This document shows positions 8,725 to 61,201 of a stretch of DNA of 64,000 nucleotides, one piece after another. Below the pieces are notes generated by a model. The model saw nothing but the letters and a program-made list of their open reading frames with translations. It was not told where the DNA came from and ran no database searches. A program made the translations under genes and the position numbers. The first letter of the stretch is position 1. Each line of letters opens with the position of its first letter. This DNA comes from Xanthostigma xanthostigma (Eukaryota; Arthropoda; Insecta; Raphidioptera; Raphidiidae): the NCBI GenBank assembly GCA_963575645.1, contig OY754471.1, positions 47,804,820 to 47,868,819 of the forward strand, read 5' to 3'.

Positions 8725-9843
8725 AAGATCCCGATTTGGCTCGATCTTCACCCATCAAGTTTTTTAATGAAATTTGATAATATAATGTATTAATAAAGAA
8801 AAATTGATTTGGTTGCCATTCAATTACTTGGCACAGCTATTTTCAATAAAAAATTTAAGTTTGTAACAATTATTATTAACGTAAGTTTGTAACATGAATA
8901 TTATTTAATTCAACTTTATTAACGTAAGTTTGTAACATGAATATTATTTAATTCAACATATTTATTAACGTAAGTTTGTAACATGAATATTATTTAATTC
9001 AACATATTTATTAACGTAAGTTTGTAACATGAATATTATTTAATTCAACATATTTATTAACGTAAGTTTGTAACATGAATATTATTCAATTAAACATATT
9101 TATTAACGTAAGTTTGTAACATGAATATTATTTAATTCAACATATTTATTAACGTAAGTTTGTAACATGAATGTTATTTAATTCAACATATTTATTAACG
9201 TAAGTGTGTAACATGAATATTATTTAATTCAACATATTTATTAACGTAAGTTTGTGACATGAATATTATTTAATTCAACACATTTATTAATTTAAGTTTT
9301 TTAACATGAACACTACTTCCTAGTTCATACGCTCCGCTGCCATCTTGCCTCTGTTTCTCCACATGACCACCACGGTACACCAGTGGCGGCGTGGCTTTTT
9401 AAGTTGTGGTGTTACAAGTTGTTAATTTTATTCTATTTATATATTTGTTATTCGTTGCCATGGTTACCTACATATAATACGTTCCACGTGTTCGCAATAA
9501 AATTATCAGCATTTTCATATATGGCAATATAGAAAACCCTATAACTGCAAAATACTAATTCGAAAGTGCCTGTCTACCTGGATTTATTCCAGGAATCAAA
9601 ATGTCGACCAAATTTCTGAATTTTATATATATATTTTACTTTCGATTGGTATAATGAATTTATTTGAAACCTCGATAACTACATTTCAGAAATAAAATTA
9701 ACAACTTTAATTTTTTATTGAAAATAGCTGCGCCAAGAACCTGAATGGCAACCAAATCAATTTTTCTTTATTAAATACATTATATTATCAAAAGTCAAAC
9801 ATTAGAAAACTCGATGGGTGAAGATCGAGTCAAATCGGGATCT
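8725..9843. mobile_element. Composite of family X arms in inverted orientation
   Basis: The left arm (8725-8857) is the reverse complement of the right arm (about 9690-9843): both carry AAATCAATTTTTCTTTAT-type sequence and the terminus GATC-CGATTTGGC. A single family X copy with the same parts lies at 56929-57268. Between the arms is an inverted left half of X (9417-9577) and the minisatellite element at 8862-9416. Confidence 0.65.
8862..9416 (+). mobile_element. Minisatellite-bearing element M, copy 1 (9 units)
   Basis: Nine units of about 46 bp (GTAAGTTTGTAACATGAATA...) start at 8881, 8924, 8970, 9016, 9062, 9108, 9154, 9200 and 9246. A unique 3' block follows (TTCATACGCTCCGCTGCCAT...). 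The element begins TGTAACA and ends TGTTACA, with AGTT on both sides. Family X elsewhere (57.1 kb) has the uninterrupted target with one AGTT, which supports a 4-bp target duplication. No protein is encoded. Confidence 0.75.
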
Positions 9844-11480: not shown

Positions 11481-12110
11481 TAAATATTCCCGATATGCAT
11501 AATCTTTGCTGAGTCATTTAATGTTGAATGACACACTGTAAGTGTAATAGTACTAAGCTTAACAGTGACTTAAACCATTCACATTGACGTCGTTGACAAA
11601 GATATAATATTGTAACAATAAACATTATTATTGTTAAGCTTTTATTATACTTTATAGTTTATCCGAAATGCGAATAATATAAGATCAGAATCATATTAAA
11701 ATTAGCTCAGAGCTGAGTGTGTGTATTGTGCTGTGCAATGCTACGTAACTCCTGAGCATGTATGATGACAGTTCACACCTCTGCAGTCTGCACTCTATTC
11801 ACGATATGCTTAATCTTTGCTGAATCATTTAATGTTGAATGACACACTGTAAGTGTAATAGTACTAAGCTTAACAGTGACTTAAACCATTCACATTGACG
11901 TCGTTGACACAGATATAATATTGTAACGATAAACATTATTGTTAAGCTTTTATTATACTTTATAGTTTATCCGAAATGCGAATAATATAAGATCAGAATC
12001 ATATTAAAATGAGCTCAGAGCTGAGTGTGTGTATTGTGCTGTGCAATGCTACGTAACTCCTGAGCATGTATGATGACAGTTCACACCTCTGCAGTCTGCA
12101 CTCGTGCGTA
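11480..12110 (+). repeat. 311-bp tandem duplication
   Basis: The unit beginning CGATATGCATAATCTTTGCTG at 11491 recurs from 11802 with a few per cent divergence, ending at the shared CTGCAGTCTGCACTC near 11794 and 12102. Just downstream (12190-12200) lies CCCAATAAAG, a polyadenylation-type signal, so the whole could be a long terminal repeat with duplicated enhancer sequence. No matching second LTR or retroelement frame is present. Confidence 0.8.
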
Positions 12111-35325: not shown

Positions 35326-35487
35326 AAATTGTTGTTATTATTATTTGTGTTTCTACTATTGTTATTGGTTGTAATTTTGTGAAAGATTTTATTGATTAAT
35401 GATGATGGATAATTATTGTTGACTAGAAATTGTTTTATAATTTTAAGATTTTTGTTATGGAATTGTGGACTAGAAATATGTGTTGAT
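35326..35487 (-). pseudogene. PLE reverse-transcriptase C-terminal fragment (inverted)
   Basis: The minus-strand frame includes HNKNLKIIKQFLVNNNYPSS followed by LINKIFHKI. It is the inverted partner of 35554-35731 and abuts the Harbinger remnant. This block lies between the RT core and the nuclease linker of Penelope-like proteins. Confidence 0.6.
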
Positions 35488-35553
35488 CTGTAGCCTACAC
35501 ATTCTGGACGATATCTGAACTTTTTTTCTGATAGTCCGTTCCAATATAAACTC

Positions 35554-35731
35554 AATGTAATAAAAAACCTCATCTACAGATCAACACATATTTCTAGTCC
35601 ACAATTCCATCACAAAAATCTTAAAATTATAAAACAATTTCTAGTCAACAATAATTATCCATCTTCATTAATCAATAAAATCTTTCACAAAATTACAACC
35701 AATAACAATAGTAGAAACACAAATAATAATA
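35554..35731 (+). pseudogene. PLE reverse-transcriptase C-terminal fragment
   Basis: The frame reads NVIKNLIYRSTHISSPQF and then KNLKIIKQFLVNNNYPSS, the thumb/linker side of a Penelope-like reverse transcriptase. It breaks at 35731 where a second PLE is inserted and resumes in the same sense at 36803. The RT catalytic core is not present anywhere in the window. Confidence 0.65.
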
Positions 35732-35833
35732 CACAAATCTTTGATTAACGTCTGATTAGAACTCTTCAATAAATAAAATTATCGACCAATTTTTCAGACA
35801 ATATATTAACAAACAATATAAAAAAATTTAATA

Positions 35834-35869
35834 CATTAACGTTTCGATCCGGATTTGGATCTTCTTCAG
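35834..35869 (-). ncRNA. Hammerhead-ribozyme-like motif (PLE family A, left arm)
   Basis: Minus strand CTGAAGA, one A, helix II GATCC/GGATC closed by AAATCC, then GAAAC. Helix III can form as ACG/TGT around TTAA with cleavage expected after the following A. Minimal hammerhead motifs in the terminal repeats of Penelope-like elements are established. Confidence 0.65.
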
Positions 35870-36051
35870 AACGGATCTAAAAATATAAAAAAAATAATTA
35901 ATAATTAGTTTCTATTTACTTTGAATGGAATTCGTGATAGATATTTTTAAAATATAAATATTGAAAAAATAATAAAAAACAATGTTTTATTATGTAGTCA
36001 TGGAAATAATTTGAGCACCTATAAAGAAAGAAAAATTATTAAAAACAAATT

Positions 36052-36325
36052 ATTTCAAAATAATATTATATATATTACTTAAATTTTCCGTATCTAATTG
36101 AGCATTGAGAGAATTTTTATTTGATTTTATATGTAACATTTCCGAAATATTTCTTTTAAAAAAATTAGTTTCATTATCTAAAATTTTTATATCATCCCAA
36201 TTAATTTTGTGGTCAAGTTCTAATTTGTGTTTAGTTATTACATTATGTTTGTCAGGGATTAATTTGTGATTATTTTGATGCTCTTTTATTCTTGTTTTAA
36301 GAGCTCTTTTAGTTTGACCAACATA
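36052..36325 (-). pseudogene. PLE GIY-YIG endonuclease C-terminus
   Basis: On the minus strand the frame reads YVGQTKRALKTRIKEHQNN, then HKLIPDKHNVITKHKLELDH, ending SNIYNIILK and stop near 36053. YVGQT is the second half of the GIY-YIG signature and the R-x3-H-x spacing fits the nuclease of Penelope-like proteins. The domain start is missing because the copy is 5'-truncated at the loop. The right arm (36322-36525) encodes the same C-terminus on the plus strand. Confidence 0.8.
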
Positions 36326-36699
36326 ATGTAATAACTAAACACAAATTAGAACTTGACCACAAAATTAATTGGGATGATATAAAAATTTTAGATAATGAAA
36401 CTAATTTTTTTAAAAGAAATATTTCGGAAATGTTACATATAAAATCAAATAAAAATTCTCTCAATGCTCAATTAGATACGGAAAATTTAAGTAATATATA
36501 TAATATTATTTTGAAATAATTTGTTTTTAATAATTTTTCTTTCTTTATAGGTGCTCAAATTATTTCCATGACTACATAATAAAACATTGTTTTTTATTAT
36601 TTTTTCAATATTTATATTTTAAAAATATCTATCACGAATTCCATTCAAAGTAAATAGAAACTAATTATTAATTATTTTTTTTATATTTTTAGATCCGTT

Positions 36700-36735
36700 C
36701 TGAAGAAGATCCAAATCCGGATCGAAACGTTAATG
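36700..36735 (+). ncRNA. Hammerhead-ribozyme-like motif (PLE family A, right arm)
   Basis: Mirror copy of the motif at 35834-35869 with the same core (CTGAAGA, GATCC/GGATC, GAAAC). Helix III is short and helix I is weak on paper, so dimeric folding may be needed, as reported for metazoan PLE hammerheads. Confidence 0.65.
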
Positions 36736-36815
36736 TATTAAATTTTTTTATATTGTTTGTTAATATATTGTCTGAAAAATTGGTCGATAATTTTATTTAT
36801 TGACAAATAATAATA

Positions 36816-37072
36816 ACAACAATACCAATGAAATTTGTACTTTTTTCTCTATTCCATTCATTCCCTTGTTATCAGAGAAGATAAAATGCATTTTTAGATC
36901 AGAAAACATTCAAATATCTTGCAAAAATCATAATTCTATATATAAAAACTTTTTTCTAAACTCAAAGACAAACTGAAAAATTACAAAACTCGGAATTAGT
37001 CTATAAAATTGATTGCAACAATTGCAATGCTACATATATAGGTCAAACTTCTCAATATCTGTTAGAGCTGTA
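36816..37072 (+). pseudogene. PLE linker and GIY-YIG fragment (outer PLE)
   Basis: Continues the outer PLE after the inserted copy. It reads IPFIPLLSEKIKCIFRSENI then, after one frameshift near 36950, LKDKLKNYKTRN, a stop, and IDCNNCNATYIGQTSQYL. The CNNC pair before TYIGQT is the cysteine-containing lead-in to the GIY-YIG nuclease of Penelope-like proteins. It is cut off at 37072 by an hAT insertion. Confidence 0.8.
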
Positions 37073-45208: not shown

Positions 45209-45649
45209 TGTAAAAATTATTATTATTTTATTCAACATATTTATTAACGTAAGTTTGTAACATGAATATTATTTAATTCAACATATTTATTAACGTAAGT
45301 TTGTATCATGAATATTATTTAATTCAACATGTTTATTAACGTAAGTTTGTAACATGAATATTATTTAATTCAATATATTTTTTAACGTAAGTGTGTAACA
45401 TGAATATTATTTAATTCAACATATTTATTAACGTAAGTTTGTAACATGAATATTATTTAATTCAACATATTTATTAACGTAAGTTTGTAACATGAATATT
45501 ATTTAATTCAACACATTTATTAATTCAAGTTTTTTAACATGAACACCACTTCCTAGTTCATACGCTCCGCTGCCATCTTGCCTCTGTTTCTCCACATGAC
45601 CACCAGAGTACACCAGTGGCGGCGCGGCTTTTTAAGACGTGGTGTTACA
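45209..45649 (+). mobile_element. Minisatellite-bearing element M, copy 2 (about 6 units)
   Basis: Starts TGTAAAAATTATTATT and ends GGTGTTACA, flanked by ATAT on both sides (45205-45208, 45650-45653). About six 46-bp units and then the family 3' block. Different host sequence from copy 1, so an independent insertion. Confidence 0.8.
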
Positions 45650-47538: not shown

Positions 47539-47788
47539 GAATATTATTATTTTATTCAACATATTAACGTAAATTTGTAACAAGAATATTATTTAATTGA
47601 ACATATTTATTAACGTAAGTTTGTAACATGAAAATTATTTAATTCAACACATTTATTAATTTAAAATTTTTTTCTACATGAACACTGCTTCCTAGTTCAT
47701 ACGCTCCGCTGCCATCTTGCCTCTGTTTCTCCACATGACCACCAGGGTACACCAGTGGCGGAGTGGCTTTTTAAGACGTGGTGTTACA
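47539..47788 (+). mobile_element. Minisatellite-bearing element M, copy 3 (about 2 units)
   Basis: Short version with about two units, the complete 3' block and TGTTACA end. The 5' tip is worn. Directly followed by copy 4. Confidence 0.75.
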
Positions 47789-48135
47789 CTTACAATTATT
47801 ATTATTATTTTATTTAACATATTTGTTAACGTAAATTTGTAACAAGAATATGATTTAATTGAACATATTTATTAACGTAAGTTTGTAACATGAATATTAT
47901 TTAATTCAACTTATTTATTAACGTAAGTTTGTAACATGAATATTATATAATTCAACATATTTATTAACGTAAGTTTGTAACATGAATATTATTTCAACAC
48001 ATTTATTAATATTAGTTTTTTTACATGAACACTACTTTCTGGTTCATACGTTCCGCTGCCATCTTGCCTCTGTTTCTTCACATGACCACCAGAGTGCACC
48101 AGTGGCGGCGTGGCTTTTTAAGACGTGGTGTTACA
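47789..48135 (+). mobile_element. Minisatellite-bearing element M, copy 4 (about 4 units)
   Basis: Begins TACAATTATTATT two bases after copy 3 and ends GGTGTTACA. It forms a head-to-tail pair with copy 3. Confidence 0.75.
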
Positions 48136-56928: not shown

Positions 56929-57268
56929 AGATCACGACCGATTTGGCAGGCACTTTCGAATTAGTATTTTGCAGTTATAAGGTTTTCTATATTGTCATAT
57001 ATATAAAAATGTAGATAATTTTATTGCGAACACGTGGAACATGTTATATGTAGGTAACCATGGCGACGAATAACAAATATTATATTTAACACTAAATACA
57101 TAAATACAATAAAATTAGCAACTAAATTTTTTTATTAGAAATAGCTGTTCTAGGAAATTGAATGGCAACCAAATCAATTTTTCTTTATTAATACATTACA
57201 TTATCAGATTTCAAATTTCATTAGAAAACTCGATGGGTGAAGGTCGAGCCAAATCGAGATCCTAGACT
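56929..57268 (+). mobile_element. Family X TIR element, single copy
   Basis: Ends AAGATCACGACCGATTTGGC and GCCAAATCGAGATCCT are imperfect inverted repeats. Shares all parts with the composite at 8725-9843 and has the unoccupied target of minisatellite element M. The GTTACCATGG module is shared with family Y. Confidence 0.65.
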
Positions 57269-57729
57269 AGTAATAGTAAAGAGAAAAAAAATACAACCTA
57301 CTCTAGACGAATTAGCTAGGTAACTTGCGTTCAGATGACAGTAAAAAATAAACGATTATGCGTTTCGTCCGTTTTAATAAATTATCTTAGATCGCGCTTA
57401 CTTTAAAGTTTAAATTATTTTTATTTTTTAGTGTATGTGATCGAGAGAGGAATGAGTGAGTGAGAGATTTTCACTTCTACAGTATGATCTTTATCACACT
57501 CTCTATTTTCTATACCTATGTACTCACATATTGTTGAATATATATCGCAACTGTGTGAACAATGTGGTTTTAAAAACTCGAAGAATATTTCTCAGGATGC
57601 TTTCTGTAGAGTTTGAGAGCCTCAATCGGCAGAAGCGTACTTTTGGCTTAATGCACACTTGTCAAGTCCTTCAGCGTAGTAGAGACGGTATCTCTGCACC
57701 GTTCGTTATATACCGTTTATATTATACAG
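57269..57729. other. Unassigned
   Basis: The 103-codon plus frame at 57456-57767 shows no motif and runs into the hAT element. Confidence 0.25.
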
Positions 57730-60334: not shown

Positions 60335-61201
60335 TAGAGCTGTAAAAGTAACGAGAAATTGTGTACCCGTATGTATTCGTTACTTAAAGAACCAGTACCC
60401 GTTACTTTCGTATCGTTACGTTACTCGTTACTTTTCATACGACATACAATCGTGTATAACCGCATCAAACGAGTCGAACTGACATGGATACGACAAATGC
60501 GAGTAACGAAATGAATTTGTAAGTAACGATTCGTTACTTCGAGTCAGATGATGTACCCGTTACTCAGTAACGAATACATATAGTCCAAGAGACGGCTGCA
60601 GAAAATGTGTCGTCATAAGGTGGACGAACGAAAAAATTAGAGGTAATAGTTAAGACCATAATTAAGAAAGATCGCTAAGGTTGCCTGCGAAAAACCTGCC
60701 GAAACAATGTTTTTTTAATTTGTTTATCAGTTAATAGACCAGTGAAGTTAGCTTTTGACAAGGACAAAAAGTTATATTCATTAAAGTTGTAGATTCTTTT
60801 AATACCTACAACATTGCCATACAACATTTTTCGATTGGAGGTCAACTTTCGCCGGAAATAACGAAAAACCGCGTTTGACCCCTAAAACGCGCCCCCCACA
60901 GTCCTTCGGCCTTTTACGCATTTGAATTTTTGGTTTTTGTATTTCTGACGGCAGTTTCTTCCCTTCCTCATCATTCGTTTTCTGTTATTAATTTTGTCCT
61001 TGTCAAAAGCTAACTTCACTGGTCTATTACCTGATAAACAAATTAAAAAAACATTGTTTCGGCAGGATATTTGCAGGCAACCTTAGCGATCTTTCTTAAT
61101 TATGGTCTTAACTATCATCTCTAATTTTTTCGTTCGTCCACCTTATGACGACACATTTTCTGCAGCCGTCTCTTGGACTAATACGGTCTGTTACAGCTCT
61201 A
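60335..61201 (+). mobile_element. hAT-like element (family H1), copy 3, with nested fold-back
   Basis: Perfect octamers ATACAAAC at 60327-60334 and 61202-61209. Ends TAGAGCTGTAAAAGTAACG and GTCTGTTACAGCTCTA. The native element is about 270 bp; the rest is the insertion at 60582-61179. Confidence 0.9.
60582..61179. mobile_element. Fold-back TIR element nested in hAT
   Basis: Arms of about 180 bp (AGTCCAAGAGACGGCTGCAG... and complement) around a loop of roughly 230 bp. The hAT copy at 37.07 kb shows the empty site CATACGG, giving a likely 3-4 bp ATA(T/C) duplication. Non-coding. Confidence 0.85.

Follow-up and report, generated by a model that had tools for sequence, protein, structure and literature searches.

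A probable TRIM-family LTR with an internal minisatellite in Xanthostigma xanthostigma, and palindromic insertions that turn at the expected end of strong-stop DNA

The window, a 64,000-nucleotide stretch of the Xanthostigma xanthostigma genome, contained four copies of a minisatellite-bearing repeat, here called element M (Table 1). A constant block aligned at four places in the window, at 91.7–100% over 108 nt. When copy 1 was read on the minus strand, its U3 start (TGTAACACC) lay at 9416 and its U5 end (TGTTACA) at 8862; the tandem array between them had a period of 46, 9.6 copies and 95% matches according to Tandem Repeats Finder. An earlier note on this DNA, made from its letters alone, had described four copies with 46-bp units and a constant 3' block, the exact bounds of copy 1 and the matching flanks of copies 1 and 2, and all of these were recovered. 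Copies 3 and 4, which it had listed separately, were not two insertions with readable duplications but one head-to-tail tandem pair with a damaged junction between them, and there were no matching 4-bp flanks around the pair. The empty site of copy 1, which it had placed near 57.1 kb, was confirmed. The left flank of copy 1 stopped, and the right flank started, at the same AGTT in the reverse complement of 57001–57300, and the joined flanks aligned to this site with a score of 81.5, compared with a maximum of 32.5 among random stretches of the window (up to 300). No match reached the curated cut-off when the six frames of the window were compared with Pfam, and the constant block found no match in a plasmid collection.

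Table 1. Positions of element M and its flanking features in the window
Feature	Position	Strand	Basis or remark
Solo LTR, copy 1	8862-9416	minus	both ends placed, length 555, exact 4-bp duplication
U3/R block (the constant 3' block of the earlier note)	9309-9416	minus	sequence comparison
46-bp minisatellite in LTR of copy 1, U5 side	8873-9310	minus	Tandem Repeats Finder
Target duplication AGTT, left of copy 1	8858-8861		flank reading
Target duplication AGTT, right of copy 1	9417-9420		flank reading
Empty target site AGTT, in a related repeat copy	57120-57123	minus	flank alignment
Solo LTR, copy 2	45209-45649	minus	7.0 units; target duplication ATAT
LTR copy 3	47545-47788	minus	about 2.5 units; U5 end damaged, low boundary approximate
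LTR copy 4	47790-48135	minus	about 4.2 units; upstream member of the tandem pair when read as an LTR

Other repeats were also present in the window. A large inverted repeat (35716–36853) had arms of 539 nt that were 96% complementary and 60 nt apart, and it was adjoined by another (35336–35731) with 158-nt arms at 99%; a further inverted repeat lay at 60581–61180, its 189-nt arms 97% complementary with 222 nt between them. At 11485–12103 a 308-bp unit was duplicated in tandem, the two being 97% alike. An 86-nt block occurred five times (1847, 3410, 17162, 28346 and 56394), 98–100% alike to the reference copy, and is part of another dispersed family.

The genome (623,323,696 bases in 28 contigs) was searched with a 29-nt stretch of the U3/R block, as the earlier note had proposed for its 3' block. 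This produced 1247 matches at no more than three mismatches, while the reversed control gave none. When 38 loci were read, head-to-head joined copies were seen, with TGTTACA-AAC-TGGCGCCCAACGTGGGGC at their centre on the minus strand. The last 18 nt of this centre we take to be complementary to insect tRNA-Lys at its 3' end. The LTR end followed by AAC and this 18-nt PBS was found at 156 places in the genome at no more than two mismatches, against none for the reversed control. At one locus, L101, the PBS continued into most of a tRNA, which scored 43.8 bits against the Rfam tRNA model (gathering threshold 29) over model positions 5–66 of 71, and which by eye had the anticodon CTT and a CCA end; ARAGORN found no tRNA in L101, whereas Rfam found one. 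This tRNA-Lys copy, which includes CCA and is joined to an LTR end, occupied 921–984 of the locus, and its outer junction had no matching duplication by eye. On the strength of L101 and of the sequence of insect tRNA-Lys, the PBS is probably a tRNA-Lys match. Given the LTR end, AAC and PBS at 156 places and the tRNA in L101, element M was therefore recognized as an LTR lying in the minus orientation, of which the constant block is U3/R and the minisatellite is on the U5 side. The ends of the repeat, said in the earlier note to fit no nameable family, are LTR ends when read on the other strand; what it had described, a mobile element whose TG...CA ends are fixed, whose target duplication is 4 bp and whose minisatellite varies, stood.

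Target duplications were scored wherever a script could place both ends; 49 clusters, in which an end was not placed, went unscored. Nine loci were omitted, L040 being the locus of an array on contig C2 and the others (L001, L031, L041, L042, L065, L069, L098 and L099) overlapping other loci. Among units that had a U3 start at one terminus and a U5 end at the other, 23 of 38 were flanked by an exact 4-bp duplication, compared with a mean of 1.17 and a maximum of 6 in 5000 shuffles; duplications of 3 bp and 5 bp were each observed once in 38. A 4-bp duplication thus held in this larger sample, as the earlier note had expected, and copies ending at other positions, which it had named as evidence against its reading, did not overturn it among the clusters scored. 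The combination of TG...CA ends with a constant 4-bp duplication is that of an LTR retrotransposon. Over 29 duplications, those of units with a U3 end at both termini included, the average G-C content was 18%.

Complete elements were very rare beside LTRs. Three loci (L081, L084 and L097) consisted of an LTR, the PBS, a stretch of 72–80 nt ending in a PPT, and a second LTR, and each was enclosed by an exact 4-bp duplication. Their internal lengths were 79 nt (L081), 80 nt (L097) and 72 nt (L084), and their total lengths 524 bp, 424 bp and 633 bp respectively, the last figure counting an additional fold-back carried by the second LTR of L084. These loci therefore have the form of TRIMs, that is, two direct LTRs and a short internal region within a total below about 1000 bp, with a PBS beside the 5' LTR (the 156 places, with the tRNA joined in L101) and a purine-rich run before the 3' LTR, read by eye as GGGGAGTG in L084, CGGGAGTG in L081 and GGGAGAGTG in L097. 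The PPT joined to the LTR start gave 28 matches in the genome at no more than three mismatches, 22 of them at exactly three. LTR length was about 212–260 bp where there were few units and 441–950 bp where arrays were long; the TRIM definition gives terminal repeats of 100–250 bp, as quoted in the available part of a study of bivalve TRIMs (PMC6934838).

The TRIM internal sequence was found at only five places in the genome, as against 1247 matches to the U3 end. Besides the three TRIMs these were L112, where the 3' LTR is cut, and L111, where a frame resembling an integrase tail lies upstream of the same PPT and LTR. This frame matched SH3_Tf2-1 (E = 2.1e-5; 25 bits, where the cut-off is 30) and, at E = 0.0016, Integrase_p58_C; neither match reached the curated cut-off, and comparison of the tail with solved structures gave no meaningful match (best E = 1.7). 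Since the tail lies upstream of the internal sequence, the TRIM internal domain is most simply read as the terminal piece of a Ty3/gypsy-type element attached to the PBS, and an element of this type probably mobilised the family. The autonomous partner with the same ends that the earlier note had sought would thus be of Ty3/gypsy type, and a single 3' fragment of it was seen. No complete gag-pol copy was seen among the loci examined. In a comparison of the upstream flanks of 119 U3 starts, sharing up to the boundary was observed only in L081 and L097 (TRIMs) and in L083 (its own tandem), so there was no full element in this sample. Just upstream of L111, a frame at L113:29–352 weakly matched Baculo_F (E = 0.0075, below the cut-off); it is possibly the remnant of an envelope gene beside the integrase tail, so the L111 locus may be a mosaic.

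Two other arrangements around the PBS were observed. In L109 a few nucleotides, with AAC and the PBS, were all that lay between two direct LTRs, and ATTG stood on both sides by eye; L110 had three LTRs arranged in the same manner. In both, the role of the PPT seems to be taken by the PBS, at its purine-rich end. A second short internal type, in which the PBS was followed by CCGATCACGCTCG... or close to it, was present at ten loci (L056, L061, L070, L074, L077, L087, L092, L093, L094 and L106). A shortened LTR came next in most of these, and the internal sequence was tandemly repeated in L093 and L061.

The TRIM structures also bear on whether element M is instead a minisatellite-carrying DNA transposon or MITE that ends in 7-bp inverted repeats (TGTAACA/TGTTACA) and makes a 4-bp duplication. 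The short inverted ends, which we take to be Ginger-like, and the length of the duplication would suit such an element. It is nevertheless highly improbable. The U5 end is followed by the PBS at 156 places, some loci have a pair of direct LTRs, one locus has an integrase-like tail and PPT ahead of its LTR, and a tRNA copy is joined to an LTR in L101; the PBS, the tRNA copy and the direct LTR pairs led to its rejection.

The minisatellite is related to the end of the LTR that carries it. When the 46-bp unit was aligned with the LTR end continued by AAC and PBS nucleotides 1–5, 32 of 38 positions agreed. Among the sampled LTRs that were whole, unit matches numbered between 1 and 18; L026 had 31, its array reaching the end of the stretch examined, and one cluster on contig C9 spanned about 2.7 kb by its coordinates. 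The resemblance of each unit to the LTR end and leader could let the growing strand slip between units and LTR end during first-strand synthesis, which would change the length of the array; such slippage is the simplest cause to suggest from the sequences. Fusion of the PBS directly to the end of a unit, as seen in L053, L070, L073 and L106, fits slippage of this kind. An LTR minisatellite composed of units like the LTR end suggests how reverse-transcription slippage could seed tandem arrays. The earlier note had proposed that the element disperses satellite seeds, and arrays of varying length are indeed dispersed, but long satellite DNA was not demonstrated.

Where a PBS was present, it was usually followed by an inverted LTR. 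Seventy loci were taken from the 100 listed among the 156 places with LTR end, AAC and PBS; across the loci read, 80 PBS places were compared. In 43 the PBS continued with GCC+AGTTT and in 17 with C+AGTTT, while four showed other offsets, including L080, which is probably not inverted. The remaining 16 had no inverted LTR next and were assigned by eye to the second internal type (ten), TRIMs (three), a tRNA (one) and others (two). Most of the 80 had been chosen by the full PBS, so a search was run that left the turning point open; its pattern was fixed in the arms and in PBS nucleotides 1–7 alone, with any gap of 0 to 30 nt (31 gap lengths) between. The 54 strand matches reduced to 45 places, where the palindrome centre was 40 nt long in 30 cases, 38 nt in nine, 26 nt in three, and 28, 41 and 51 nt in one each. 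The turn was therefore at nucleotide 18 of the PBS in 39 of 45, with 30 in the GCC+AGTTT register and nine in C+AGTTT, the register being taken from length alone in 24 of the 54 rows (20 places). Given 31 allowed lengths, about 3 of 45 would be expected in two given lengths by chance. Collapsing neighbours within 1 kb left 43 places (29, 8 and 3 at lengths 40, 38 and 26, then three singles), of which 37 turned at nucleotide 18.

Palindromes were also encountered among loci chosen by the U3 block and not by the PBS. The first 30 of the 1247 matches in contig order (L009–L038; 29 on C1 and one on C2) represent 29 independent loci, L030 and L031 being the same place. A PBS-centred palindrome was present in six of them (L012, L016, L017, L030, L035 and L037), and L015 was a seventh, with a short centre, TGGCGCCA, according to the coordinates of the open search.

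Retroviral biochemistry has shown that plus-strand strong-stop DNA halts when it meets methylated A58 in the primer tRNA. As described in the accessible part of one source, plus-strand strong-stop DNA stops after 18 nt of primer tRNA owing to m1A58, and with an unmodified primer it runs to the 5' end of the tRNA (PMC13191261). The palindromes of element M turn at the expected end of plus-strand strong-stop DNA, and L101 resembles the product expected if the tRNA were copied past position 58. It thus seems that dozens of insertions in the genome mark the tRNA stop to the nucleotide, and that one marks read-through into the tRNA.

The joint reading, to which a probability of roughly 0.8 is given, is that element M represents the LTR of a family of TRIMs, which a Ty3/gypsy-type element probably mobilised, that its palindromes derive from turns of strong-stop DNA and that its minisatellite changes by slippage. 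Reverse transcription primed by tRNA-Lys would carry plus-strand strong-stop DNA as far as PBS nucleotide 18 and no further, methylated A58 blocking synthesis there. The strong-stop end, ...GCCCAACGTGGGGC-3', could then pair with itself as a hairpin, or with a second strong-stop molecule as a homodimer, and be extended into inverted copies of the LTR on either side of a central PBS. Such a dimer would be a linear double-stranded DNA with a U3 end at both termini, which integrase could insert, leaving the 4-bp duplication usual for the family. When the PBS end was folded with DNA parameters, C18 lay opposite G3 in the hairpin, predicting the C+AGTTT register, and opposite G5 in the homodimer, predicting GCC+AGTTT. 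The energies of hairpin and dimer were no better than those of shuffled sequences (98 and 102 of 300 shuffles equalled or beat them). The PBS thus forms no special structure and is simply able to turn; a special stability of either form is unsupported. There was no significant link between turning register and insertion outcome, classified by hand (13:1 against 28:11, p = 0.15).

Palindromes bounded by two U3 ends show how some of these structures were inserted. An exact 4-bp duplication enclosed six of 13 such palindromes, compared with a mean of 0.70 and a maximum of 4 in 5000 shuffles. Of the seven without one in the automatic test, L082 matched by eye, two of the remaining six matched at three of four bases and four did not match; the duplication of L102, which is not among the thirteen, also matched by eye. 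The six with exact outer duplications apparently integrated as units, implying integration with two U3 ends. Many palindromes were one-sided, having a short inverted arm and, by eye, mostly no duplication, the exceptions being L047, L103 and, at a low-complexity site, L050. Fold-backs also occurred within units whose U3 and U5 ends were normal and whose duplications were exact (L039, L059, L060, L075, L084 and L100). Self-priming, dimerisation and the use of two U3 ends are what we infer; turning point, registers and duplications are as observed. The specific proposal that two strong-stop DNAs dimerise through their tRNA-copied 3' ends, extend into a palindrome with two U3 ends and are inserted as a unit by integrase has about an even chance of being correct.

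The same outer duplications count against the idea that palindromes arose after insertion, when a second LTR inserted inversely into the PBS or a replication fork switched template. Other insertions do interrupt copies of the family, and one-sided forms without duplications exist, as this would predict. Yet both arms are enclosed by duplications in six of 13, and 39 of 45 palindromes turn at a single nucleotide that is the expected end of tRNA-copied DNA, which makes an origin after insertion decidedly improbable.

A second alternative to strong-stop turning is that the palindromes descend from one or a few master fold-back elements by multiplication, and not from independent accidents of reverse transcription. 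Its appeal lies in the 30 of 45 palindromes that share one register, in the variant centre and similar layout common to L075 and L076, and in the local repetition of one layout at L068 and in the C2 array at 3.957 Mb. It is set against by the arms, which differ in unit number, by the coexistence of two registers, and by the palindromes with two U3 ends, which would have no direct R repeat from which to be re-transcribed; on balance, it is unlikely. The arms of the 13 palindromes were also compared with each other. They shared eight rare variants against a mean of 2.96 when re-paired, the eight being reached in 46 of 5000 shuffles, and this speaks for the strong-stop reading. Divergence between arms, which weighs against it, was below the median of random pairs in seven of 13 and above it in six, and only three fell within the lowest tenth.

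A TRIM-type LTR family is a known kind of element, and the internal minisatellite makes the present family a variant of it; the palindromes turning at the tRNA stop are the surprising part. No report of palindromic LTR insertions in genomes was found in the literature searched, as judged by titles and the starts of abstracts. If strong-stop dimers are indeed inserted, they would constitute a side route by which LTRs spread even when the second strand transfer is unfinished and the element incomplete, and this could also explain part of the large excess of LTRs over complete TRIMs. If confirmed, the palindromes would provide a genomic readout of failed strand transfers and a route for LTR multiplication without complete elements.

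Several known systems share features with element M, as far as the available portions of the sources describe them. PbTRIM of the red harvester ant is likewise a TRIM with many solo LTRs, no coding capacity and AT-rich 4-bp duplications, the G-C content of its sites (18.1%) being close to the 18% observed here (PMC3532108). It differs in having a tRNA-Leu PBS and LTRs of 152–184 bp, as against tRNA-Lys and solo-type units of 212–950 bp, and the terms 'tandem' and 'palindrom' occur zero times in its available text, whereas element M has an LTR minisatellite and palindromic insertions (PMC3532108). The biv-TRIM elements of bivalves resemble element M in their solo and tandem terminal repeats, mostly fragments, and their inner domains contain inverted repeats or palindromic sequences; no canonical PBS could be recognised in them, while here an exact PBS marks the turning point of inverted LTRs (PMC6934838). 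Plant Ogre LTR retrotransposons, according to the accessible text, offer a precedent for dispersed short tandem arrays that occasionally expand, although their arrays lie in the 3' untranslated region and that of element M inside the LTR (PMC7004042). The Tetris fold-back element of Drosophila virilis similarly gives rise to satellite building blocks, but is described as a DNA transposon, whereas element M is an LTR (PMC4079207). HIV-1 integrase cleaves a palindromic LTR-LTR junction, which again concerns integrase acting on palindromic LTR sequence; by its title and the start of its abstract this is an enzyme study, in contrast to the genomic insertions described here (PMC1905944).

The positions of the exact U3-block matches were uneven along the contigs. 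Of the 29 exact matches listed on C1, none was located between 15.1 and 67.7 Mb of its 84.2 Mb; for a uniform distribution this would have a probability of about 5e-13, for a gap picked after it had been seen. Similar gaps were observed among the listed matches on C2 (18.4–48.3 Mb) and C3 (15.5–41.5 Mb), and these exact U3-block matches avoid the chromosome middles.
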